64,000 nucleotides of DNA, taken from the NCBI RefSeq assembly GCF_005145045.1, contig NZ_CP039693.1:62001-126000 (forward strand), written 5' to 3'. Origin of the DNA: Agrobacterium larrymoorei. GTDB taxonomy: Bacteria > Pseudomonadota > Alphaproteobacteria > Rhizobiales > Rhizobiaceae. The translations under genes were made by a program, and so were the position numbers. The notes below the pieces were generated by a model, which was given only the letters and a program-made list of their open reading frames with translations, did no database searches and was not told where the DNA came from. This document shows, in pieces, positions 8,890 through 64,000 of the stretch. Each line of letters begins with the position of its first letter. Position 1 is the stretch's first letter.

Positions 8890-9155
8890 GACAATCATCC
8901 ATGAGGTTTTCTCATAGATGGGTGACACGGAGCACCCACACAATAGGTCGAAGCTTGCCGTCTGCTAGCGTACGGGGTCTATTCCAGGGCTTGTATCGCT
9001 GACACCGCAACGCCACATCCTGAGCGCCACCCCAAACAATCGTAAACCTGTACAGCGGCATCCGCCGACGTCTGCGTGACGGTATTCGCGGGGTGAGACG
9101 GCTGCTCCCTCTATGGTCGAGCGCCGTCGGCCTCCTTTTTACCGATAGGACCTCA

Positions 9156-9755
9156 ATGCACTCTCGTGATCGCCTCATAGTTTTCCTTCACGGCATAGGC
9201 GCATCGGGCGCGCAGCTTATGCCTCTCTCCAACGCATGGAGGTCAAGCTTCCCGAACGCGCGTTTTGCAGCGCCGGACGCGCCACTCCATCACTGGAGGG
9301 GACACCAGTGGTTTTTGATCGAAGGCGACCCCCTTGATCCTGCTCGCATCCGAGCAGCACGCAAGACGTTCGACGATCTCATGACCGACGTCGTTCACCG
9401 TGAAGGCTTTAACGAGGCACATCATCGGGTTGCATTCGTCGGCGTCTCGCAAGGCGCGATCGTTGCGCTGGACGCAATTGCCTCAGGCAGGTGGCAGATC
9501 GGTGCACTTGTTTCATTCGCAGGCCTCTTGGCCCCTCAACAGGTTTCGCCGCTCAGCAAGACCACTCAGGTTCTTCTTGTTCACGGACAAGCGGACACGA
9601 TTATCCCGGCCGCAGATTCGATGATGGCGGCTTCGCAGTTCCAGGCTGCCGGGTTCGAGGTCGAACTTGACGTGGAGCCCGGCGTCGGCCACACGATCTC
9701 TTCGAGCGGAGCCGATCGCGCACGTGCGTTCTTGCGTCGATCGTTAATTTCATGA
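9156..9755 (+). CDS. Alpha/beta hydrolase (carboxylesterase/phospholipase type)
   Basis: This 199-residue protein has the small carboxylesterase fold: RLIVFLHGIGASGAQL (oxyanion region), the nucleophile elbow GVSQG, an Asp in HGQADTIIP and a His in GVGHTIS, which together make a Ser-Asp-His triad. It has no signal peptide, so it should be cytoplasmic. The length agrees with the YpfH/predicted-esterase group. I chose ATG 9156, which has AGGA six bases upstream; the frame is open to 9093. The stop overlaps the next start (ATGA), so it is coupled to the DoxX-like gene. Substrate unknown. Confidence 0.88.
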   Translation: MHSRDRLIVFLHGIGASGAQLMPLSNAWRSSFPNARFAAPDAPLHHWRGHQWFLIEGDPLDPARIRAARKTFDDLMTDVVHREGFNEAHHRVAFVGVSQGAIVALDAIASGRWQIGALVSFAGLLAPQQVSPLSKTTQVLLVHGQADTIIPAADSMMAASQFQAAGFEVELDVEPGVGHTISSSGADRARAFLRRSLIS

Positions 9756-10192
9756 CAGCATCGGGGCCGGAAAGCTCACGGGTGAGCCTGGAGGCATGGC
9801 GAAACCGCGTGCGAGCCGGTTTCTTCATCTTTTACGCCATCGCGGGCGTTATGCATCTTGCCTATCCGAGACCATTCCTGACGATCACGCCACAGTGGGT
9901 TCCTCATGCATCGCTCGTCATCGCCCTGACAGGACTGTGCGAGATTGCTGGCGCGCTCGGCCTATGGCATTTTCGGCTCCGCAAACTCGCAGGTTTTGCG
10001 TTGGCAACATACGCCGTTTGTGTCTTTCCCGCGAACGTGAAACATGCCATCGACAGCATGAGGACCGCCGATCCGACGGTCTGGTCGTGGATGTACCATT
10101 GCATCCGCCTACCGCTCTAGCCTTTACTGGTATGGGGTGCACTGTTTGCCGGAGGAATAATCAACTGGCCTATCACAAAAAAGCATCGGTGA
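9752..10192 (+). pseudogene. DoxX-like membrane protein gene interrupted by an in-frame amber codon
   Basis: The frame starts at ATG 9752, overlapping the hydrolase stop, and encodes a small multi-helix membrane protein: RVRAGFFIFYAIAGVMHLAY, LVIALTGLCEIAGALGLW, and KLAGFALATYAVCVFPANVK with the HAI that follows. A TAG at 10118-10120 ends it after 122 residues. The same frame then continues for 23 codons as PLLVWGALFAGGIINWPITK to a TGA at 10192, which is the missing last transmembrane helix. DoxX-like proteins of this type run to about 140-150 residues. A CAG-to-TAG change in an otherwise intact gene is the simplest reading. Confidence 0.75.
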
Positions 10193-10299
10193 TGCTCTAC
10201 GTTCTGAACATTGCGCAGTTCGCACGGCGCACGCATCGCCTGAGAGACGCTGCGGCATGCGTAGGTCGTAATGTCGATGCTTCAGCGATAAAAGCTTGG

Positions 10300-10782
10300 T
10301 CAGCCCCATTTTTCGAGCAGCCCGCCTGAAGGGCCGTGGACCGGATCGGTCTCGGGTAAAGGAAGCGACGCAATCTTCTGCAGCATTTCCTCTGTGGCGG
10401 CTGATCGCTGGATATCGGCGTGCTCGTCCGCGGGATAAGCTCCAACGATCTGGAAATCTTCTGAGCTTCCGAGGTTCTGGTGACCTGTGCCAGCCGGCAG
10501 GAGGAGGCAGTCTCCTGACGAAACGTCTACCATTCGGCCGTCCGGGCCGCCGATTAGCAAGGTTGCAGTTCCACTTTTGACGCCCAGCACTTCATGGGCG
10601 CCGGCGTGATAGTGCTGGTAATCGAAGACGCCGTCTGTCCAGATCCCAGCCCAGGCGTTCAGGGCAAACAGCGTTTCAAAGTCATCGCCATCGTCGAGCT
10701 GAACCTGGTAATACAAAACGGGAAGCCGCTGATTGTTGGGTACCCAATCACTTGGCTCGAATACGATTGCCTCGACTTCCAT
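10300..10782 (-). CDS. Cupin-domain protein (YjlB type)
   Basis: This 160-residue single-domain cupin has the first motif in HYHAGAHEVLGVKSGTATLL (His, His, Glu) and the second in GDCLLLPAGTGHQNLGSS (Pro, Gly, His). It resembles the YjlB group, whose members are predicted metal-binding proteins of unknown substrate. I placed the start at the ATG ending at 10782 (MEVEAIVFEPSDW), with AAGGAAA upstream; the frame is open to 10827. It stands alone on the minus strand. Confidence 0.82.
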   Translation of the reverse strand: MEVEAIVFEPSDWVPNNQRLPVLYYQVQLDDGDDFETLFALNAWAGIWTDGVFDYQHYHAGAHEVLGVKSGTATLLIGGPDGRMVDVSSGDCLLLPAGTGHQNLGSSEDFQIVGAYPADEHADIQRSAATEEMLQKIASLPLPETDPVHGPSGGLLEKWG

Positions 10783-54311: not shown

Positions 54312-54752
54312 ATGCCGAGTATGCTTATGGACCTGTCGAAGATAAAAACGCTTATCGATTTTGTCGGACGATCAAATGTCTCCGAACTGACGGTTACCCG
54401 CAAAGACGTGACCGTTCGAATTTTTCGGAGCGCAAATGATGGTGTAGCTGCGACCGTTGATGCGGACCCCGAGATATCAAGTGACACAGACCTCAAGGCA
54501 TCCGAGAGCCCCAGTCTTTCCACGGCTGTGCGCGCACCGATTTTCGGCGTTCTCCATCGCGCCTCCGCTCCGGGCCAGCCTCCTTTCGTTTATGCCGGAG
54601 ATATCGTCGAAGAAGGCGACACGCTGTTCATCGTGGAGGCCATGAAGGTGTTTAACAAAATCACGGCCCCATGCGCCGGGCGCATCACTTTCCTGACGGA
54701 CATCGATGGTGGAGAAGTCGACGCCAATGAACTCTTGGCGGAGATTGCGTAA
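54312..54752 (+). CDS. Biotin carboxyl carrier protein (AccB-like)
   Basis: This 146-residue carrier starts with a helical segment (DLSKIKTLIDFVGRSNVSEL), has an acidic linker (residues about 45-70), and then the biotinyl domain: VRAPIFGVLHRASAPGQPPF, GDIVEEGDTLFIVEAMKVFN, and ITFLTDIDGGEVDANELLAE. Lys112 in EAMKVFN is the biotin site. It is probably the carrier for the biotin carboxylase whose ATG overlaps its stop codon. I chose ATG 54312; ATGs at 54321 and 54327 are also in frame. A housekeeping accB is expected elsewhere in the genome, so this copy is likely dedicated to the locus. Confidence 0.9.
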   Translation: MPSMLMDLSKIKTLIDFVGRSNVSELTVTRKDVTVRIFRSANDGVAATVDADPEISSDTDLKASESPSLSTAVRAPIFGVLHRASAPGQPPFVYAGDIVEEGDTLFIVEAMKVFNKITAPCAGRITFLTDIDGGEVDANELLAEIA

Positions 54753-56134
54753 TGGCGGACGGTTTAAACGAAAAAGAGCCGCTTTTCGATACGGTCCTTA
54801 TCGCCAATCGCGGCGAGATTGCCGCACGTATCCAGCGCGCGTGCCGAGAACTGGATTTGAAAATAGTCGCGGTGTGTTCCGAGGCCGACAGGCAGGCTTC
54901 GTATGGTGAGGCTGCCGACACGTTTCTGTGCGTCGGCCCCGCAAGCGCGACGAAAAGCTATCTTAACAAGGACGCCATATTGCTGGCGGCGCGTTTGACA
55001 GGTGCTGGCGCAATTCACCCTGGTTACGGCTTTCTCTCGGAAAACGCGGCTTTCTCGGAGGCTATCGAGAACGCCGGGCTCGTTTTCATCGGCCCGGATG
55101 CCAAATCGATTGCAACGATGGGAGACAAGATTGCCGCCAAGCGTACCATGATCACGGCGGGCGTGCCGTGCGTTCCCGGCCCTGACACGGCGCTTCCCGA
55201 TAATCTGGAAACGATTGAGTCTATCGCAGAGGAGATCGGGTATCCAGTCATCATCAAGGCGGCGGGCGGCGGCGGCGGGCGTGGTATGCGGGTGGTGCAT
55301 CAGGCTTCGGCGCTTCGCGAGGCCGTTACGTTGACCCGTGAGGAGGCGCGGCAGGCCTTCGGTTCTGCCGCTCTCTACATAGAAAAGTTTCTCCAGCGTC
55401 CACGCCATATCGAGATACAGGTGCTGTGCGATACGCATGGCAATGCCATCTGGCTCGGTCACCGTGATTGTTCGATGCAGCGACGTCACCAGAAGGTGGT
55501 CGAGGAAGCGCCAGCACCCGGTATCTCCGAGGCGATCATTCGACCCGTGGGGCTCGCGTGCGTCGAGGCCTGCCAGCAGATCGGCTATCGGGGTGTCGGC
55601 ACGTTCGAGTTCCTTTATGAAGACGGCAGGTTCTATTTCATCGAGATGAATACGCGCCTACAAGTCGAGCACCCGGTCACCGAGATGACGAGCGGAATCG
55701 ACATCGTTCAGGCGCAGATCAAATCCGCTCAAGGGCAACATCTTGAGCTTCGACAGCAAGACGTCCTCTGCACCGGGCATTCCTTCGAATGCCGCATCAA
55801 TGCCGAAGACCCGGATACATTCCTGCCGTCCGCGGGCGTGTTGACGGATGTTTCCTGGCCTAAGGGAGAGGGCATTCGCATCGATACGCACATTCACAAA
55901 GGATATCGCGTTTCGCCCTACTACGACTCCCTTATCGCCAAGCTGATCGTACACGCTCCGACACGCGGCGAAGCGATGGCGCGGATGCGCAATGCTCTGG
56001 CCGAAACCCGCGTGAACGGTATTTCCACCAATCTTCCGCTCCTTTGCGCGCTGTTCGAGGACGCTGCGTTTGCGGAAGGGGAGACCGATATTCATTATCT
56101 CGAGCAATGGCTTACAGCTTGGAGAGCGGCATGA
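54752..56134 (+). CDS. Biotin carboxylase (AccC-like)
   Basis: This 460-residue ATP-grasp enzyme carboxylates biotin on the carrier using ATP and bicarbonate. It shows FDTVLIANRGEIAARIQRAC, IHPGYGFLSENAAFSEAIEN, the glycine-rich ATP loop KAAGGGGGRGMR, HIEIQVLCDTHGNAIWLGHR, DCSMQRRHQKVVEEAPAP and the active-site FIEMNTRLQVEHPVTEMTSG. Full length and all catalytic motifs are present. It overlaps the carrier genes on both sides by one and four bases. No acetyl-CoA carboxyltransferase genes are nearby; the KipI/KipA-type proteins downstream are the obvious carboxyltransferase candidates. Confidence 0.94.
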   Translation: MADGLNEKEPLFDTVLIANRGEIAARIQRACRELDLKIVAVCSEADRQASYGEAADTFLCVGPASATKSYLNKDAILLAARLTGAGAIHPGYGFLSENAAFSEAIENAGLVFIGPDAKSIATMGDKIAAKRTMITAGVPCVPGPDTALPDNLETIESIAEEIGYPVIIKAAGGGGGRGMRVVHQASALREAVTLTREEARQAFGSAALYIEKFLQRPRHIEIQVLCDTHGNAIWLGHRDCSMQRRHQKVVEEAPAPGISEAIIRPVGLACVEACQQIGYRGVGTFEFLYEDGRFYFIEMNTRLQVEHPVTEMTSGIDIVQAQIKSAQGQHLELRQQDVLCTGHSFECRINAEDPDTFLPSAGVLTDVSWPKGEGIRIDTHIHKGYRVSPYYDSLIAKLIVHAPTRGEAMARMRNALAETRVNGISTNLPLLCALFEDAAFAEGETDIHYLEQWLTAWRAA

Positions 56135-56541
56135 GCAGGCTCGATTTTACCGATCCCGCCACTCTCGCAGCCTTGACGGAGATGCTGACGACAGCAGGCG
56201 TCGAGGGGCTGGAGATCACCACGCCCGATACGGGGGTAAAGCTGGTCGTACCGTCATCCGGGAAGGCCGTGATATCTTCGAAAGCCATGTCCGCCCAACT
56301 AACGTCGGCCACGACAGTGAAAGCACCGATAGCCGGTCTTTTTCACCTCGCTCCCCCTGCTGATGGAGAGGCGTTCCCGCGTCCCGTTACTACGGACACT
56401 GTGGTCGGGTTCATCCGCATCGGCCATGTTCTCGTTCCCGTCATTGCCGGTCGCGCCGGTTTGCTGACCGGTCAGCTTGCCGAGCAGGATGCACTGGTCG
56501 GTTTCGGTGATCCTCTGTTCGAAATCGAGCTTCACTCATGA
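56131..56541 (+). CDS. Biotinyl-carrier-like protein lacking the biotinylation lysine
   Basis: The 136 residues follow the AccB plan: an N-terminal segment (LAALTEMLTTAGVEGLEITT, then DTGVKLVVP), a linker, and a barrel-sandwich domain with VKAPIAGLFHLAPPADGEAF and DALVGFGDPLFEIELHS at the end. In the hairpin where EAMKM should be, the sequence reads IRIGHVLVPVIAGRAGLLTG with no lysine, so it cannot carry biotin. It may be a structural subunit or a regulator of the complex. ATG 56131 overlaps the biotin carboxylase stop, and its own stop overlaps pxpB. Confidence 0.8.
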   Translation: MSRLDFTDPATLAALTEMLTTAGVEGLEITTPDTGVKLVVPSSGKAVISSKAMSAQLTSATTVKAPIAGLFHLAPPADGEAFPRPVTTDTVVGFIRIGHVLVPVIAGRAGLLTGQLAEQDALVGFGDPLFEIELHS

Positions 56542-57245
56542 TTGCCACTCAAAGCATTCTCCCGTTCCGGCATGACATTCAGCCAGCAGTCAAGGGACAG
56601 GCACGCGTGTCGTTCATCGGCTCGCGGTCGTTTCTGCTGGAAGCACCTGGCGAATTCGATCTGCCAGCCCAGCGCTGGATCTGGGCTTTGTCGCAAACTG
56701 TGGGCGTATGGCCGGAGGTCGCGGAAGTCATTCCCGGCATGACCAATATTCTGACGATCCTGAAGGAAACGCCCGAGAACCCGGAAGCCGTCGTCGCCCG
56801 GTTGCTCGAAGCATGGGACAGCGCCACCAGCCTCGATCTTGCGGGAAAAACCGTAGAGATACCCGTTCACTACGGCGGAGAGTACGCGACGGACCTTGCG
56901 ACGCTCTGCGATTTCGCAGACCTGAGCGACCGTGAGGTGGTGCGCATCCATTATGAAGCGACTTACCGCGTCTTTGCGCTCGGCAGCGCGCCGGGCTTCG
57001 GTTACCTACACGGGCTGGATCAGCGCATTTACATGCCGCGAAAAACGGTGCCGTCGATCAAGATGGAAAAGGGCTGTGTAACCATCGGTGGGATGCAGAC
57101 GGGTGTTGCCATGCTGACCGGCCCTAACGGTTGGAATTCAATTGGTTACGCGGATTTGCAAATGTTCGATCCTGCCGCCTCCCGACCTGCACTGCTAGCG
57201 CCCGGAGATACGGTTCGCTTCATTCCTGCAAGGATAGAGCTATGA
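56538..57245 (+). CDS. pxpB: PxpB/KipI-family protein (5-oxoprolinase subunit or carboxyltransferase half)
   Basis: This 235-residue protein is of the AHS1/KipI family, with IPVHYGGEYATDLATLCDFA, YEATYRVFALGSAPGFGYLH, and the His/Met-rich GMQTGVAMLTGPNGWNSIGY. The family acts with KipA/PxpC in ATP-dependent 5-oxoprolinase, and its fold also forms half of the carboxyltransferase domain of urea carboxylase. It has about 90 residues before IPVHYGG, as usual. The gene is coupled to both neighbours by ATGA overlaps. Confidence 0.92.
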   Translation: MIATQSILPFRHDIQPAVKGQARVSFIGSRSFLLEAPGEFDLPAQRWIWALSQTVGVWPEVAEVIPGMTNILTILKETPENPEAVVARLLEAWDSATSLDLAGKTVEIPVHYGGEYATDLATLCDFADLSDREVVRIHYEATYRVFALGSAPGFGYLHGLDQRIYMPRKTVPSIKMEKGCVTIGGMQTGVAMLTGPNGWNSIGYADLQMFDPAASRPALLAPGDTVRFIPARIEL

Positions 57246-58237
57246 TCGAAATCATCGAAACCGGCCCGTTCAATACCGTGCAGGATCTGGGGCGTCCCGG
57301 CTTTCGCGATATCGGCGTCACTGCTGGTGGCGCAATGGACCCACTTGCGGTTCACGTTGGCAACGCTTTGCTCGGAAACGCTATCGACGCTGCGGTCATT
57401 GAGGTCCAGACATTTCCCTTCAAACTGCGGTTTTCTGCCTCCGCCGTGTTCGCTACAGCAGGCGCAGACAACGTCCCCCTACTGGATGGCAATCCACTGT
57501 TGCCATGGTGCGCGCATCTTGCAAAAGAGGGCGCCGTTCTGGAACTGTATCAACCACCTACACTCGCGCGCTCATACATTGCTGTAGCTGGCGGCCTGGA
57601 TGTACCGGTGCTGATGGGATCGCGAAGCACCGCGCTGCGTGGCAATTTCGGCGGCCACGAAGGACGGCCTCTGGCTAACGGCGACAGGCTGGAAATCGGC
57701 GAGGTTGCTGATCCGGCACCGCCGCCTTCGAATGGTCTCGCCGCGGTCGAGCCATCCCGTGCTTTAGCCGATCTTTTCCCGCCCATTGTCGATGGCGTTT
57801 TGCTGGTTCGCGCCATCTCGGCCGGCGAACATCACCTTTTCAGCGATGATGGCGAAGCGTTTTGGGCCCAGACCTGGAAGATTTCCTCACGCAGCGACCG
57901 AACCGGTTACCGGCTCTCCGGCGATCCGATCAAGCCGACCGAGACCATCGAAATGCGCTCTCACGGTGTGGTTCCGGGCGTGGTGCAGGTTCCGCCGGGC
58001 GGCGAGCCGATCATCCAGATGAGCGATGCAAATACGGCGGGCGGCTATCCGAAGATCGCAGGCGTGATCGAGGCCGATCTCTGGCGGCTAGGTCAGGCGC
58101 GCGCGGGCGGCAAGATCAAGTTCGTCAGGTCGACCCATGAGGAGGCACGGCGGGTGGAGCAGGCGGTCGCGCGCTATGTCGAAGATATCCGGCAAACCGT
58201 ACCGATGGTTAAACGCGCTCTGATTGCAATGGCCTGA
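57242..58237 (+). CDS. pxpC: PxpC/KipA-family protein (5-oxoprolinase subunit or carboxyltransferase half)
   Basis: The 331-residue AHS2/KipA protein begins MIEIIETGPFNTVQDLGRPG, with FRDIGVTAGGAMDPLAVHVG next. Further conserved text is YIAVAGGLDVPVLMGSRSTA, SSRSDRTGYRLSGDPI, EMRSHGVVPGVVQVPPGGEP and ADLWRLGQARAGGKIKFV. It pairs with PxpB; together they match the two halves of the urea carboxylase carboxyltransferase. I chose ATG 57242, which overlaps the pxpB stop; the open frame upstream of it lies within pxpB. Confidence 0.93.
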   Translation: MIEIIETGPFNTVQDLGRPGFRDIGVTAGGAMDPLAVHVGNALLGNAIDAAVIEVQTFPFKLRFSASAVFATAGADNVPLLDGNPLLPWCAHLAKEGAVLELYQPPTLARSYIAVAGGLDVPVLMGSRSTALRGNFGGHEGRPLANGDRLEIGEVADPAPPPSNGLAAVEPSRALADLFPPIVDGVLLVRAISAGEHHLFSDDGEAFWAQTWKISSRSDRTGYRLSGDPIKPTETIEMRSHGVVPGVVQVPPGGEPIIQMSDANTAGGYPKIAGVIEADLWRLGQARAGGKIKFVRSTHEEARRVEQAVARYVEDIRQTVPMVKRALIAMA

Positions 58238-58254
58238 GGGAGAGGGAGGACGTT

Positions 58255-59022
58255 ATGAAGATCGATCTCAATTCTGACATGGGCGAGGGCTTCGGCCTAT
58301 ATCGACTGTGCGACGACGAAGCGATGATGAAGCTTGTCTCCTCGGCCAATATAGCCTGCGGGTTCCATGGGGGCGACCCGGATACGATGGCGCGCATGGT
58401 GCGTCTCGCCAAACAGAACGGCGTCGGCATCGGTGCCCATCCCGGCCTGCCGGATCGCTCGAGTTTCGGTCGCCGCGAGCTACCGTTTCAACCGGATGAG
58501 CTGCGCCAGCAGATGCTCTACCAACTCGGCGCTCTGATTGCGATTGCCAGAAGCGAAGGCATGGACGTCGGCCATTTCAGCTTCCACGCGGCGATGGGAA
58601 ACATGGTCAATCGCGATCCCGCCCTTGCCGACATGATGATGAACGCCATTTCCGCAGTCGATCCCAAGCTGGTCGTCTTCGTAACGCCGGAAAGCGAGAT
58701 AGAAAGAGCGGCAAAGCGCGCCGGGCTGAAAACGCTGGCGCTGTTTCTGGCCGACCGTGCCTATGATGTAAAGGGCAGCCTCGTTGCGCGAGGCCTTCCG
58801 GGGGCCTTGGTCAAGGACGAGCCATCGGTGCGCGCCCGCGTCCGCCGCTTCCTCACGCAAGGAACGGTCGAGGCCATCGATGGCACCATTATTTCTATGC
58901 CTGCCAGGTCGATCCTCGTCCACAGCGATACGCCCGGGTCACTGGAACTCGCATCTATCGTTCGCAGCGAAATCATCTCTTCGGGCGCAACGCTCGCGCC
59001 TGCTTCCGAACTTGCCTCTTAA
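58255..59022 (+). CDS. pxpA: PxpA, LamB/YcsF-family 5-oxoprolinase catalytic subunit
   Basis: This 255-residue protein is a full-length LamB/YcsF member: KIDLNSDMGEGFGLYRLCDD, SANIACGFHGGDPDTMARMV, and GIGAHPGLPDRSSFGRRELP with the conserved Asp and His residues. It cleaves the activated lactam in the ATP-dependent 5-oxoprolinase reaction (5-oxoproline to glutamate). The spacing of 17 bases from pxpC, with GGGAGAGGGAGG upstream, keeps it in the operon. With the biotin genes in front, the true substrate may differ from 5-oxoproline. Confidence 0.94.
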   Translation: MKIDLNSDMGEGFGLYRLCDDEAMMKLVSSANIACGFHGGDPDTMARMVRLAKQNGVGIGAHPGLPDRSSFGRRELPFQPDELRQQMLYQLGALIAIARSEGMDVGHFSFHAAMGNMVNRDPALADMMMNAISAVDPKLVVFVTPESEIERAAKRAGLKTLALFLADRAYDVKGSLVARGLPGALVKDEPSVRARVRRFLTQGTVEAIDGTIISMPARSILVHSDTPGSLELASIVRSEIISSGATLAPASELAS

Positions 59023-59070: not shown

Positions 59071-60276
59071 ATGTCCTCCACCGCCGATCGATTGAAGAAC
59101 GTCTCGATTTCTGCTTCAGCCGCCATGACCCAGCGTGCCAGAGAGCTGGCAGGCCAAGGGATCAAGGTTGTCAGTCTTTCCTCGGGCGAGCCGGATTTCC
59201 CGACACCTGCACATGCCATAGAGGCCGCACATGAGGCTGCTCTTGGCGGACAGACCAAGTACCCGCCGATGGATGGCACGCCCGCAATCAAGGCGGCGAT
59301 TGCCAGAAAATTCAAGCGTGACAACAATCTGACCTATGATGCCAGCCAGATCATCGTATCGGGTGGCGGCAAACAGGTGATTTTCAATGCCATGCTGGCC
59401 ACCTGTAACCCTGGCGATGAGGTGGTCATTCCGACCCCGTCATGGGTCAGCTATGCGGATATCGTCAAATTCGCCGGAGGTGTTCCCGTCGCCGTTCCTT
59501 GTTTCGAACAGACGGGTTTCAAGCTTCGTCCGGAAGATCTGGAAGCAGCGATAACACCCCGCACGAAATGGCTTTTCCTGAACTTCCCGAACAATCCGAC
59601 CGGTGCCGCCTGCTCGCGCGTCGAGATGACGGCGATTGCAGAAGTGATGCTGCGACATCCGCATGTCTGGATACTGACGGACGATATTTATGAGCATCTG
59701 GTTTACGATGGATTCGAATTCGGCACGATCGCCGATGTCGAGCCACGGCTTTACGACCGTGTCCTGACGATGAACGGCGTGTCGAAAGCCTATGCGATGA
59801 CCGGCTGGCGTCTAGGTTATTGCGCCAGCGGTTCGAAGGAACTAATCGCCGCCATCAGCAACGTGAACGGCCAGAACAGCGGCGGCATTGCCACCGTTTC
59901 TCAGGCTGCAGCGATCGCGGCACTGGATGGACCGCAGGATTTGCTGAAGGAGCGCGCCGCGATCTACCGCGAACGCCGTGATTTCGTTTTGGGAAAGCTT
60001 GCCGAAATCGACGGCCTGCGCTGTCACAAGCCGGAAGGCGCGTTCTATCTCTACCCGAACATGTCCGGCCTCATTGGCAAGACAACGAAGGGCGGGCGCA
60101 AGATCGAAGGTGACGTTGATTTCGTCATGGCGCTGGTAGATGAGCATCACGTCGCCACCGTGCAGGGAGCAGCTTACGGCATGAGCCCCTATTTCCGTAT
60201 TTCTTACGCCACGAGCATGGAAATGCTGAACGAGGGTTGCGCCCGCATTGCGCAGTTCTGCAAGGACATGCGTTGA
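59071..60276 (+). CDS. Class I PLP-dependent aminotransferase (aspartate aminotransferase type)
   Basis: This 401-residue fold-type I aminotransferase has the PLP lysine in NGVSKAYAMTGWRLGYCAS, the cofactor-contacting NFPNNPTGAA and WILTDDIYEHLVYDG, and the substrate Arg in SPYFRISYAT. It resembles alphaproteobacterial aspartate aminotransferase A in its start, ADRLKNVSISASAAMTQRAR. It follows pxpA by 48 bases on the same strand and would convert the amino acid released by the pathway (for example glutamate) or form its oxo acid. The exact substrate is open. Confidence 0.92.
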   Translation: MSSTADRLKNVSISASAAMTQRARELAGQGIKVVSLSSGEPDFPTPAHAIEAAHEAALGGQTKYPPMDGTPAIKAAIARKFKRDNNLTYDASQIIVSGGGKQVIFNAMLATCNPGDEVVIPTPSWVSYADIVKFAGGVPVAVPCFEQTGFKLRPEDLEAAITPRTKWLFLNFPNNPTGAACSRVEMTAIAEVMLRHPHVWILTDDIYEHLVYDGFEFGTIADVEPRLYDRVLTMNGVSKAYAMTGWRLGYCASGSKELIAAISNVNGQNSGGIATVSQAAAIAALDGPQDLLKERAAIYRERRDFVLGKLAEIDGLRCHKPEGAFYLYPNMSGLIGKTTKGGRKIEGDVDFVMALVDEHHVATVQGAAYGMSPYFRISYATSMEMLNEGCARIAQFCKDMR

Positions 60277-60321: not shown

Positions 60322-61227
60322 TTAAAGCTTCAAGTTCTCGGTCAGTTCAACGAGAATATCCTTCACGGCAAAAGCCGGTTCAGACAGCGAGTTCTGATCG
60401 GACGTGCAGAGTGACAGAGTTTCCTCGATCCGGGGAGAGAGCAGACGGCAGACCAGAGGTTCGCTGGTTTCCGAAACGATCCGGTCGGCAATCGCCTTCG
60501 GCATGATTGTCGCTCCGAGCCCACTTGCGACAGCGCGGGCCAGCGTTCTGACGATTTCCACTTCCGCCACGACCTTGAGGTTGACCCGGCTTCGGGTAAA
60601 CGCCACGTCCACGGCACGACGCACGAAGTTGTAGGCAGGTGGCATCAGCATCGGCACGCCATCCAGTGCGGCAATAGGCATCGGCTTCGTGTCCGATTCG
60701 ATCGCGAAATCGCGGTGCGCGACGAGATAGAATTCTTCGCTCAGCAGCGGCTCGAAACGCACCCCCTTAATGGGGCCGACGCCGTGTATCAATGCCAGTT
60801 CCAGCCGGCCGTTCATGATCATCTGGCTGTAGGTCTGCCCGACGCTTTCGGTCAGATGAATGAGGATGCCGGGATGACGCTTGCGTGTTTCCGCAAGGAG
60901 ATCGACTGATAGAGTGGCAGCACTACTGAACGGCACCAGACCAACGGATACCCGGCCAGCAATCGAATTTCCCGCTGCCGACGCGTCCATCTGCGCCTGT
61001 TCCATTTGCCGAAGGATGATTTGCGCATGGCGATAAACGGCGTGGCCCGCGTCCGTCATCGTTACGCCCTGCTGACTGCGGATGAGCAGCTTCTGCCCAA
61101 AGTGCTCTTCCAGTGCAGCGAGCTGCTGGCTAAGCGCCGGTTGCGCGAGATGAAGAATGTCGGCAGCGCGCGTTATGCTACCGCTGTCCACGATGACGAT
61201 GAATGATTTTAAGCGTCTGATGTCCAT
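60322..61227 (-). CDS. LysR-family transcriptional regulator (Nac/Cbl-like)
   Basis: This 301-residue regulator has the LysR helix-turn-helix at residues 1-60 (MDIRRLKSFIVIVDSGSITR, AADILHLAQPALSQQLAALE) and a two-lobed effector domain. The start resembles Nac-type regulators of nitrogen assimilation. It is divergent from the SDR and transporter operon across 229 bases, and its 3' end faces the aminotransferase. The arrangement suggests it controls the transporter operon and perhaps the pxp operon in response to the pathway substrate. Confidence 0.93.
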   Translation of the reverse strand: MDIRRLKSFIVIVDSGSITRAADILHLAQPALSQQLAALEEHFGQKLLIRSQQGVTMTDAGHAVYRHAQIILRQMEQAQMDASAAGNSIAGRVSVGLVPFSSAATLSVDLLAETRKRHPGILIHLTESVGQTYSQMIMNGRLELALIHGVGPIKGVRFEPLLSEEFYLVAHRDFAIESDTKPMPIAALDGVPMLMPPAYNFVRRAVDVAFTRSRVNLKVVAEVEIVRTLARAVASGLGATIMPKAIADRIVSETSEPLVCRLLSPRIEETLSLCTSDQNSLSEPAFAVKDILVELTENLKL

Positions 61228-61456: not shown

Positions 61457-62236
61457 ATGCCATTCTCCGATTACAAGACCGCATTGGTCACCGGTGCTTC
61501 ATCCGGTATCGGCGCCGCAGTCGTAGAGCGGCTCCGCCGCGAAAATATCGAAGTCCATGCCATCGCTCGCAATGCAGATGCGTTGAACGATCTGGCCAAT
61601 CGCACCGGCTGCATCTCGCACGCCATCGACGTGACGGACCGCGCAGCTTTGACCGAGCTTGCCGACAAGGTGCAGTTCGACATTCTGGTAAACAACGCAG
61701 GTGTCGACAGACCGAAAAAGTTTCTTCAGGCGGATGCGGAAGACATCGATCTCCTCGTTGATGTGAATCTTCGTGCCGTGCTGCATATCTGCCGCCTTGT
61801 CGTGCCGGGCATGGTGGAGCGTGATCGCGGTCACGTCATCAACATTTCCTCTATTGCCGGAAACTATAATTTCGGCGGTAATTCCACCTATCACGCCGTC
61901 AAGGCAGGCGTCGCCATGCTGTCGAACCAGCTGCGGATCGACGCATTCGGCAAGCGCGTCCGTGTCACCGAGATTTGCCCTGGTCGCGTCGCTACGGACA
62001 TTTTCAACCACGTCCACGGCAACGATCCGAGCATACGCGAGCGTTTCATCGACGGTTTCGAACTGCCGAAGGCTGAAGACATCGCCGATGCGATTGCTTT
62101 TGCCATCGCCGCACCCGTCGCCGTCAATATCGGCCATATGGAAATCACGCCGACCTTGCAGGTAATGGGCGGACTGCAAACGACCAAGCCTCAGGACGTC
62201 TTGGCAGCTGAAGCGGCGAAGGAGCAAAAGCCGTGA
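61457..62236 (+). CDS. Short-chain dehydrogenase/reductase
   Basis: This 259-residue SDR has the NAD(P) motif TGASSGIG near residue 13, NNAGV, and the catalytic Ser-Tyr-Lys in INISSIAGNYNFGGNSTYHA followed by VKAG. CPGRVATDIF follows as usual. It resembles SDRs acting on 3-hydroxy acids or serine-like compounds (YdfG type), which would fit amino-acid-derived substrates. ATG 61457 has GGGGA upstream; an in-frame ATG at 61427 is less likely. The stop overlaps the GTG of the first permease gene. Confidence 0.9.
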   Translation: MPFSDYKTALVTGASSGIGAAVVERLRRENIEVHAIARNADALNDLANRTGCISHAIDVTDRAALTELADKVQFDILVNNAGVDRPKKFLQADAEDIDLLVDVNLRAVLHICRLVVPGMVERDRGHVINISSIAGNYNFGGNSTYHAVKAGVAMLSNQLRIDAFGKRVRVTEICPGRVATDIFNHVHGNDPSIRERFIDGFELPKAEDIADAIAFAIAAPVAVNIGHMEITPTLQVMGGLQTTKPQDVLAAEAAKEQKP

Positions 62237-62940
62237 GCGGCTTCGATCTTTCAGCGATCCTCAGCAATCCCGAATATATCGGGATGCTGGTTCACGGCCT
62301 TCAGATGACCTTCATCATCTTCTTCGGCTCGTGGACGCTTGCCATGACGCTGGCACTGATCCTTCTCTGCATCCGGTTCTCGCCATTCCGTTTCGGGGAT
62401 CGCATCGTCGCAGCCTATGTCTCTTATCACCGTAATGTGCCGACGCTGGTACAATTGATGCTGTGGTATTTCGGTATCTTCACGCTTCTGCCGTCCGGTC
62501 TCTCCGGCTGGTTGATCGATCATAATGCCGAGGCGATTTTTGCCGTGGTAGGTCTCGGGCTCTGCCAGGCGGCCTATTTCAGTGAGGATTTGCGCTCTGG
62601 TCTGCGTTCGGTCAGTCCGGGGCAGATGGAAGCGGCCAAGGCGCTCGGCCATGGTTATCTCTCTTCCATGCGCTTCATCATCATGCCGCAGGGTGTGCGG
62701 AACGCGCTGCCACCGCTGATCAACCACAGTGTCTCGCTGTTCAAGAACAGCAGCCTTGCACTCGTAATCGGCGCGTCGGAACTTACCCACGCAGTCAAGG
62801 AAATCGAGAACCTCAGCTTCCAGACCTTCGAAATCTATCTGGTTGGAACGGTGCTCTACCTCGTCATTTCGCTGCTGATCATGGCAGTGGGTGCCTATCT
62901 TTCGATGCGCCTCGATCCGGCATGGAGGGCACGCGCATGA
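62233..62940 (+). CDS. Polar amino acid ABC transporter permease (HisMQ type)
   Basis: The 235-residue inner-membrane permease has about five helices and the EAA loop, GQMEAAKALGHGYLSSMRFI with IMPQGVRNALPPLINH after it, that docks the ATPase. The His/Glu/Gln permease signature is clear. It starts with GTG inside the SDR stop and overlaps the second permease by four bases. With its partner it forms the heterodimeric channel of an amino-acid importer. The substrate-binding protein is not within the window and probably lies downstream. Confidence 0.93.
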   Translation: MSGFDLSAILSNPEYIGMLVHGLQMTFIIFFGSWTLAMTLALILLCIRFSPFRFGDRIVAAYVSYHRNVPTLVQLMLWYFGIFTLLPSGLSGWLIDHNAEAIFAVVGLGLCQAAYFSEDLRSGLRSVSPGQMEAAKALGHGYLSSMRFIIMPQGVRNALPPLINHSVSLFKNSSLALVIGASELTHAVKEIENLSFQTFEIYLVGTVLYLVISLLIMAVGAYLSMRLDPAWRARA

Positions 62941-63695
62941 TCGGTGAGATGATGACCATCGTTCACGATTACTGGCTGCTGCTTCTGATCGGTCAGTATC
63001 CGAACGGCCCGCTGGGCGGTCTGGCGAATACGATCATACTCTCCGCACTCGCCATTGCATTTGCATTTCCGGTCAGCATCCTCATGGCGCTGGCGCGGCT
63101 TTCGAAATGGCGCGCGCTTCGCTGGCCGGTGACGGCATTGGTCTATGTTACTCGTGGCGTACCGCTGCTGATGCTGATTCTGTGGAGCTACTTCCTTATT
63201 CCGCTCTGGACCGGTGCGGACGTGCCGAGCTTCGCGATCATGCTGGTGACGCTGGTCGTTTATCAGGGCGCGTTTCTCAGCGAGGTCGTCAGAGCCGGTA
63301 TCGTGGCCCTAGGGGCAGGGCAGATGGATGCGGCGAGGGCGCTCGGCCATAGCTATATGGGAGCGATGCGCTTCATCATCCTGCCGCAGGCGCTCTACAA
63401 CATGATCCCGAGCATGATCTCGACCTTTGTGGCGACGATCAAGGACACCACGCTCGGTTACGTCATCAACGTGCCTGACCTGACCTTTGCAGCGAGCCAG
63501 GTGAACAATCAGCTTCTGACGCAGCCATTCCAGGTCTTCCTCATCCTGGCGATCGTCTATTACGCCATCTGCTGGAGCCTGACCTATCTCGCAAACACTT
63601 TAGAGCGCCGTATTGCCAAGCGCCGCGCCGGGGTCGTGAGCCGTCCGCAACAGGCGGTGATGACGCAGGCCAAAATCATAACGGAGCAGCCATGA
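62937..63695 (+). CDS. Polar amino acid ABC transporter permease, second subunit
   Basis: The 252-residue partner permease has the EAA loop GQMDAARALGHSYMGAMRFI with ILPQALYNMIPSMISTF next, and VVYQGAFLSEVVRAGIVALG before it. I chose ATG 62937, which overlaps the first permease stop (ATGA); the open frame to 62922 is part of that gene. Its own stop overlaps the ATPase start. Confidence 0.93.
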   Translation: MIGEMMTIVHDYWLLLLIGQYPNGPLGGLANTIILSALAIAFAFPVSILMALARLSKWRALRWPVTALVYVTRGVPLLMLILWSYFLIPLWTGADVPSFAIMLVTLVVYQGAFLSEVVRAGIVALGAGQMDAARALGHSYMGAMRFIILPQALYNMIPSMISTFVATIKDTTLGYVINVPDLTFAASQVNNQLLTQPFQVFLILAIVYYAICWSLTYLANTLERRIAKRRAGVVSRPQQAVMTQAKIITEQP

Positions 63696-64000
63696 CAGTA
63701 CCATCGACTGACCAGACGATCCGCATCTCGAATGTCTGCAAGAGCTATGGCGACTACGAGGTTTTGAAGAATGTCGATGCCGAAGTTGCCCGCGGCGAGG
63801 TGGTGGTCATTTGCGGTCCCTCCGGTTCCGGTAAATCCACGCTGATCCGCACCGTCAATCGTCTCGAAGAGATCAACAGCGGCTCGATCACGCTGGATGG
63901 TCAGGATATCCATGCTGCTACGAAGACGAAGGAACTCAACCTGCTGCGCAGCCGCGTGGGTTTCGTGTTCCAGAGCTTCAACCTGTTCCCGCATCTCTCG
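63692..64000 (+). CDS. Polar amino acid ABC transporter ATP-binding protein (partial)
   Basis: ATG 63692 overlaps the permease stop. The 103 codons visible encode the start of an ABC ATPase of the GlnQ/HisP type: IRISNVCKSYGDYEVLKNVD, Walker A GPSGSGKSTLIR at about residues 47-58, NRLEEINSGSITLDG, and the Q-loop VFQSFNLFPHL. The gene runs off the right edge, so the signature motif, Walker B and the end are not seen. Confidence 0.94.
   Translation, partial: MTVPSTDQTIRISNVCKSYGDYEVLKNVDAEVARGEVVVICGPSGSGKSTLIRTVNRLEEINSGSITLDGQDIHAATKTKELNLLRSRVGFVFQSFNLFPHLS

Follow-up and report, generated by a model that had tools for sequence, protein, structure and literature searches.

A stretch of 64,000 nucleotides from the plant-associated bacterium Agrobacterium larrymoorei (the window; contig NZ_CP039693.1, positions 62,001 to 126,000), part of a 396,698-base replicon (plasmid), carries six adjoining genes whose products resemble the separated parts of urea carboxylase accompanied by a PxpA-type hydrolase. 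The genes lie on the forward strand from 54321 to 59022, in the order biotin carboxyl carrier (54321..54752), biotin carboxylase (BC; 54752..56134), a gene that we refer to as gene 3 (56131..56541), PxpB (56538..57245), PxpC (57242..58237) and PxpA (58255..59022). All six genes and the split urea-carboxylase-like make-up had been proposed in a preliminary description of the window, and both are confirmed here. The overlapping start and stop codons reported there are found at four of the five junctions (1, 4, 4 and 4 nt, 5′ to 3′), but PxpC and PxpA are separated by a 17-nt gap; the carrier start placed at 54312 is an in-frame ATG, but the gene is called at 54321 and the public record starts it at 54327.

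The carrier contains the biotin-site sequence IVEAMKVFNKI, with its EAMK motif, and matches Biotin_lipoyl (51.6 bits, cut-off 22.1), with a score of 81.9 against TIGR00531 BCCP (below the cut-off of 115.2). The BC is canonical and aligns nearly end to end (residues 11-454) with solved BC enzymes, including the MNTRxQVEHP stretch, and scores 665.2 against NF006367 (over 597) and 623.1 against TIGR00514 (just below 626.5). The carboxyltransferase domains of urea carboxylase are also present, subdomains C-D in the KipI-type PxpB (CT_C_D, 202.3 bits) and subdomains A-B in the KipA-type PxpC (CT_A_B, 272.8 bits). PxpB exceeds the equivalog cut-off for the PxpB of PxpABC 5-oxoprolinase (TIGR00370, 173.7 over 145.55); PxpC exceeds TIGR00724 (289.5 over 230.2) and lies below the PxpC equivalog NF045499 (273.7 against 500). 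PxpA belongs to the LamB/YcsF family (LamB_YcsF, 294.5 bits) and passes the NF003814 subfamily cut-off (329.3 over 226), while the KPHG-type motif of E. coli-type PxpA, KPHGALYN, is altered to SFHAAMGN.

A BC and a biotin carrier are what an acetyl-CoA carboxylase would need in part, and the locus has both; the linked Carboxyl_trans subunit is missing. In agreement with the preliminary description, there is no acyl-CoA carboxyltransferase near the locus, as the four Carboxyl_trans places of the genome all lie elsewhere, the nearest on the same replicon about 190 kb off. This distance counts against an acetyl-CoA carboxylase only in part, because E. coli-type acc genes need not adjoin one another.

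Gene 3 had been described as a second carrier. It has no match to Pfam and NCBIfam models at E 0.001, its predicted fold is that of a biotinyl domain, and a lysine in the biotin loop was found in none of 53 homologues, leaving one biotin carrier in the operon and one lysine-less carrier-like protein. An identical copy (100% identity) lies in A. larrymoorei AF3.44 plasmid unnamed1 (NZ_CP072170.1). A biotinyl-domain fold without the biotin lysine is also the make-up of the BADC proteins of plant plastid acetyl-CoA carboxylase, which are described as carrier paralogues without a biotinylation motif (PMC11926652), and gene 3 likewise stands beside a BC and a true carrier. Plant BADC differs in serving acetyl-CoA carboxylase, and the likeness is one of fold and missing lysine. 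Should this reading be true, plant BADC would have a bacterial counterpart in gene 3.

To evaluate conservation, a species-genome collection was scanned with a PxpC alignment. The best 80 loci from 588 relatives, which are not a random sample, split into 20 loci with most of the wider gene set and 60 without BC in the stretch. The 20 come from Rhizobium, Agrobacterium, Sinorhizobium, Phyllobacterium and others, together with Pseudomonas graminis, Pantoea formicae and Acetobacter conturbans, in which gene order is rearranged; in the stretches seen, the Pantoea locus is without BC and the Acetobacter locus without an ABC importer (ABC, ATP-binding cassette). The 60 (Burkholderia group, enterics including E. 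coli, and others) all have PxpB and PxpC, and 58 have PxpA. Two further sets were used: a family set of 40 loci hand-picked from a list (20 of them having mostly long open frames and the other 20 mostly shorter ones), and a phylum sample of 63 places. Frame length marked 19 of these places as urea carboxylase; with them excluded, along with one fragment and three places belonging to the genome itself, 40 loci remained. Groups W (window-type), V, F, T, E (the 60 loci above) and E2 were named first from gene layout and then tested by a tree. W comprises 26 rows and 25 distinct loci, because L181 and L042 share an identical PxpC; L176, a duplicate of L039, was not assigned to any group. BC is present in 24 of the 26 W rows at 150 bits and in 23 at 250 bits, the additional one being L046, cut by a contig end, and PxpA stands beside the BC-linked PxpBC in all 26. 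Gene content and order, whose absence from relatives the preliminary description had named beforehand as grounds for refutation, are conserved.

We then asked how BC is distributed across PxpBC clades. This genome holds six BC genes in 5.26 Mb, from which we estimate by arithmetic that a random 15-kb stretch would contain one in about 1.7% of cases. BC lies within about 7 kb of 12 of the 40 non-urea-carboxylase PxpC loci of the phylum sample, and at 35 of the 40 hand-picked family loci, in at least four layouts. In a tree of PxpB and PxpC (128 tips, LG+G4, ultrafast bootstrap, midpoint root), urea carboxylase with T, window-type with V, F, and E2 each received a support of 100, and window-type with V is the neighbour of 59 of the 60 E loci (support 96 for the joining node and 88 for the E clade). 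The window-type, fused and urea-carboxylase-like forms carry BC, and the E. coli/Burkholderia group has it at none of 60 loci. Consistent with this, when 38 further phylum-sample loci were placed on an extended FastTree, BC was present in 9/9 assigned to F, T or V, in 0/27 assigned to E or E2, and in one of the two at the base of E+V+W. Because local support is low in places, at 0.195 for many of the E2-like loci and 0.48 for the V locus, the firm outcome is the division into linked and unlinked rather than the fine branching. Given the excess over the expected 1.7% and the way in which BC follows PxpB and PxpC clades, the association is not due to chance; it is either old with repeated loss, or was gained more than once.

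The arrangement in the window is not unique, as several BC-linked layouts exist. Group T (L143, L144, L163-L167, L169, L170, L173-L175) has the order PxpA, carrier, BC, PxpB, PxpC. Among split forms it is perhaps the closest to urea carboxylase, given that its PxpB has the urea carboxylase lysine discussed below in 12/12 cases and that it groups with urea carboxylase (support 100). A second BC-linked PxpABC system is encoded in the same genome (at C2:245.6 kb; L012:6588-17133, about 244.6-255.1 kb of C2), consisting of a GntR-type regulator (named by eye), PxpA, a PxpB-PxpC fusion, a BC-carrier fusion and an importer that appears oligopeptide-like by eye. The genome also holds a urea carboxylase gene apparently without its front part (L013:3266-6888; C2, about 458.3-461.9 kb, reverse strand), a 605-aa frame matching 3va7 from residue 602. 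It lies beside an allophanate-hydrolase-like gene (by eye) and abuts an apparently shortened sugar-type binding protein gene.

The altered PxpA motif is a feature of the group rather than of one genome: SFHAAMGN occurs in 22 of the 26 window-type rows and the motif lysine is absent from all 26, whereas it is kept in E (58/58), F (13/13) and T (13/13), and in 3/7 of V. Its loss in window-type loci and retention in E and F hint at a different substrate. Loss of this lysine wherever BC is linked was considered as a general rule and fails, given its retention in F and T and in part of V.

Downstream of PxpA lie a pyridoxal-phosphate (PLP) aminotransferase resembling aspartate aminotransferase (59071..60276, forward; Aminotran_1_2 272.8 bits; NF004769 513.5, below 617), a LysR-type regulator on the reverse strand (60322..61227) that scores above the NAC cut-off (NF008410, 323.3 over 309), a short-chain dehydrogenase/reductase (SDR; 61457..62236, forward, start per public record; adh_short 154.8 bits) and the genes of an amino-acid ABC importer on the forward strand. 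The latter comprise permease 1 (62233..62940; BPD_transp_1, with polar amino-acid permease matches below equivalog cut-offs), permease 2 (62937..63695, start per public record) and an ATPase truncated by the window end (63692..64000), with the binding protein beyond it (L014:14480-15313). The adjacent importer of the preliminary description is confirmed, and the regulator fits a role in nitrogen catabolism. An aldolase of CHA/HMG type follows (L014:15402-16076; NF006731 215.6, over 179; TIGR02798 186.6, below 304.5). Just after it come an SDR, a gluconokinase and a 2-hydroxyacid dehydrogenase (L014:16203-18469), then L-idonate 5-dehydrogenase in the public record; these probably form a separate gluconate/idonate cluster. 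Of the 26 window-type rows, 25 have the NAC-type regulator, 24 the aminotransferase and 24 the SDR; parts of the ABC importer occur in 23 or 24 rows, and 17 include the aldolase. Seven of the nine rows without aldolase (L045, L046, L048, L157, L178, L180, L181) seem to end at or near its site, and two (L049, L051) do not. In Rhizobium mongolense (L032), the region after PxpA (9019-10529) is without aminotransferase, regulator and SDR, with permease 2 directly 3′ of PxpA, which looks like a deletion inside the cluster.

Urea carboxylase (TIGR02712; K. lactis 3VA7/5I8I) is one chain, whereas the window system is made of separate chains, has PxpA in place of allophanate hydrolase as partner and includes an extra lysine-less carrier. 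Membership of urea carboxylase was rejected, although the parts agree, on the TIGR02712 score (BC 499.4 and PxpC 166.2 against a cut-off of 1303.85) and on an arginine in place of the general-base lysine. As in PxpABC 5-oxoprolinase (E. coli YbgJKL, B. subtilis, C. glutamicum, C. difficile), homologues of PxpB, PxpC and PxpA adjoin; the differences are the presence of BC, which the 60 E loci including E. coli lack in the stretch, the sub-threshold PxpC and the altered PxpA motif. Co-location of pxp and acc genes is already in print for S. aureus, where a six-gene operon includes pxpB, pxpC, pxpA, accB and accC, with accBC listed under fatty-acid synthesis (PMC11315280). BC and carrier are co-transcribed with PxpBCA there as well; the published account, as far as it was available, does not mention a lysine-less carrier, and the window type is a further form. 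An Lp. pentosus genome is reported to have pxpB and pxpC and an extra BC and carrier, with co-location not stated in the text available. PDB entry 9yx5, titled as a long chain acyl-CoA carboxylase complex of Mycobacterium smegmatis with MSMEG_0435-MSMEG_0436 bound, lists 'allophanate hydrolase subunit' 1 and 2 and the AccA3 alpha subunit as chains, and so, by chain names and title, brings PxpB and PxpC homologues together with a BC-BCCP chain, although one that belongs to acyl-CoA carboxylase. MSMEG_0435 and MSMEG_0436 are reported to rise 2.4- and 2.2-fold under nitrogen limitation (PMC4617892). Searches of openly licensed PMC papers yielded no assay of BC with PxpBC, no biochemical data on the window operon and no paper on 9yx5.

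These data allow us to propose, with a probability of roughly 60%, that the six proteins together make up a biotin-dependent carboxylase in split form and a hydrolase. From the families of the parts we infer each catalytic step, the formation of a complex in A. larrymoorei and the substrate. BC would carboxylate biotin on the EAMK carrier at the expense of ATP and bicarbonate, with gene 3 helping BC-carrier assembly as plant BADC does. PxpB and PxpC, as carboxyltransferase halves, would then use the carboxybiotin to carboxylate the substrate, most likely at a lactam or other amide nitrogen, and PxpA would hydrolyse the activated amide, after which the carbamate would lose CO2. Transamination of the released amino acid may then give an oxo-acid for the linked aldolase to cleave. 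Given the NAC-type regulator and amino-acid importer, the pathway would serve to supply nitrogen. Our tentative guess is that the substrate is a plant lactam resembling 5-oxoproline, hydroxylated or 4-substituted, since pyruvate and a second oxo-acid would result if the aminotransferase and the CHA/HMG-type aldolase acted on a 4-hydroxyglutamate-like acid. The proposed pathway assigns no step to the SDR. In another enzyme family, caprolactam hydrolysis is described as bicarbonate-dependent (PMC8453981).

Several observations weigh against this proposal. Lys1605 of K. lactis urea carboxylase, the lysine of TKYNPSRT, is described as the likely general base of carboxyl transfer, and its replacement in K1605A is severely inhibiting (PMC5770610). 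The column holds lysine in urea carboxylase (7/7) and T (12/12), and arginine in PxpB of window-type (26/26), V (7/7), F (13/13), E (60/60) and E2 (3/3) loci; the transfer step of urea carboxylase is therefore not simply transferable. On the other side, the M. smegmatis PxpB of 9yx5 is also of the arginine form. Binding of PxpB and PxpC in 9yx5, an entry known by its chain names and title, could be regulatory. BC was not seen in the stretch at window-type L043 and L050 or at V loci L168 and L172. PxpB and PxpC of 5-oxoprolinase are reported to hydrolyse ATP themselves and are assumed to phosphorylate 5-oxoproline (PMC8453981, PMC13274462). Apart from this, the residue at the Lys1605 column was tried as a divider between BC-linked and BC-free loci and fails, F, V and window-type being BC-linked with arginine and only T having lysine. 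L043, L168 and L172 retain an AMK carrier and a lysine-less carrier, perhaps served by a housekeeping BC, and L050 does not retain the AMK carrier.

The ATP hydrolysis by PxpBC, the arginine shared by linked and unlinked PxpB and the few members without BC would all suit an ATP-dependent lactamase in which PxpBCA phosphorylates its substrate, BC and carriers doing a separate job in the same pathway. We consider this unlikely, since it leaves carboxybiotin with no other carboxyltransferase nearby as user, and BC presence tracks PxpBC clades; 9yx5 also speaks against it. A BC-fed PxpBC could instead carboxylate an amino-acid-like substrate at carbon or at some other group, with PxpA acting on a later product. 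The genetic evidence is shared with N-carboxylation, and the reaction of window-type PxpA may differ because its motif lysine is lost in every row. Against this stand urea carboxylase, the nearest characterised transferase relative, which carboxylates nitrogen (PMC5770610), and the constant company of PxpA and BC-linked PxpBC, and we regard it as improbable. A reading of BC and carrier as the spare half of an acetyl-CoA carboxylase, serving fatty-acid synthesis and located here by chance, follows the labels in the public record and the way such genes have been read in S. aureus and Lp. pentosus, but is very improbable given the absence of AccA/AccD nearby, the co-inheritance with PxpBC clades and another, top-scoring BC gene on C1.

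Together these data support the preliminary interpretation in part: a conserved variant would unite a split urea-carboxylase-like carboxylase with a PxpA-type hydrolase, and carboxylation might take the place of the ATP activation of a lactam. Of the fungal lactam genes lamA/lamB, lamA resembles urea carboxylase. We also consider, as a distinctly doubtful extension, that PxpBC is a biotin-dependent carboxyltransferase everywhere, the 'BC-free' PxpABC systems, including the E. coli and B. subtilis 5-oxoprolinases, borrowing housekeeping BC-BCCP as 9yx5 hints; in that case biotin carboxylase would consume the ATP that these 5-oxoprolinases require, and 5-oxoproline would not be phosphorylated. 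The proposed reading makes the role of PxpBC, with its carboxyltransferase fold, testable. If it is true, many genes labelled 'acetyl-CoA carboxylase' and '5-oxoprolinase' in genomes would be parts of one enzyme, and biotin-dependent N-carboxylation, known for urea, would be a wider route to opening unreactive amides and lactams. Conservation of the operon in many relatives points to a breakdown of some cyclic amides that starts with the biotin-aided addition of CO2.

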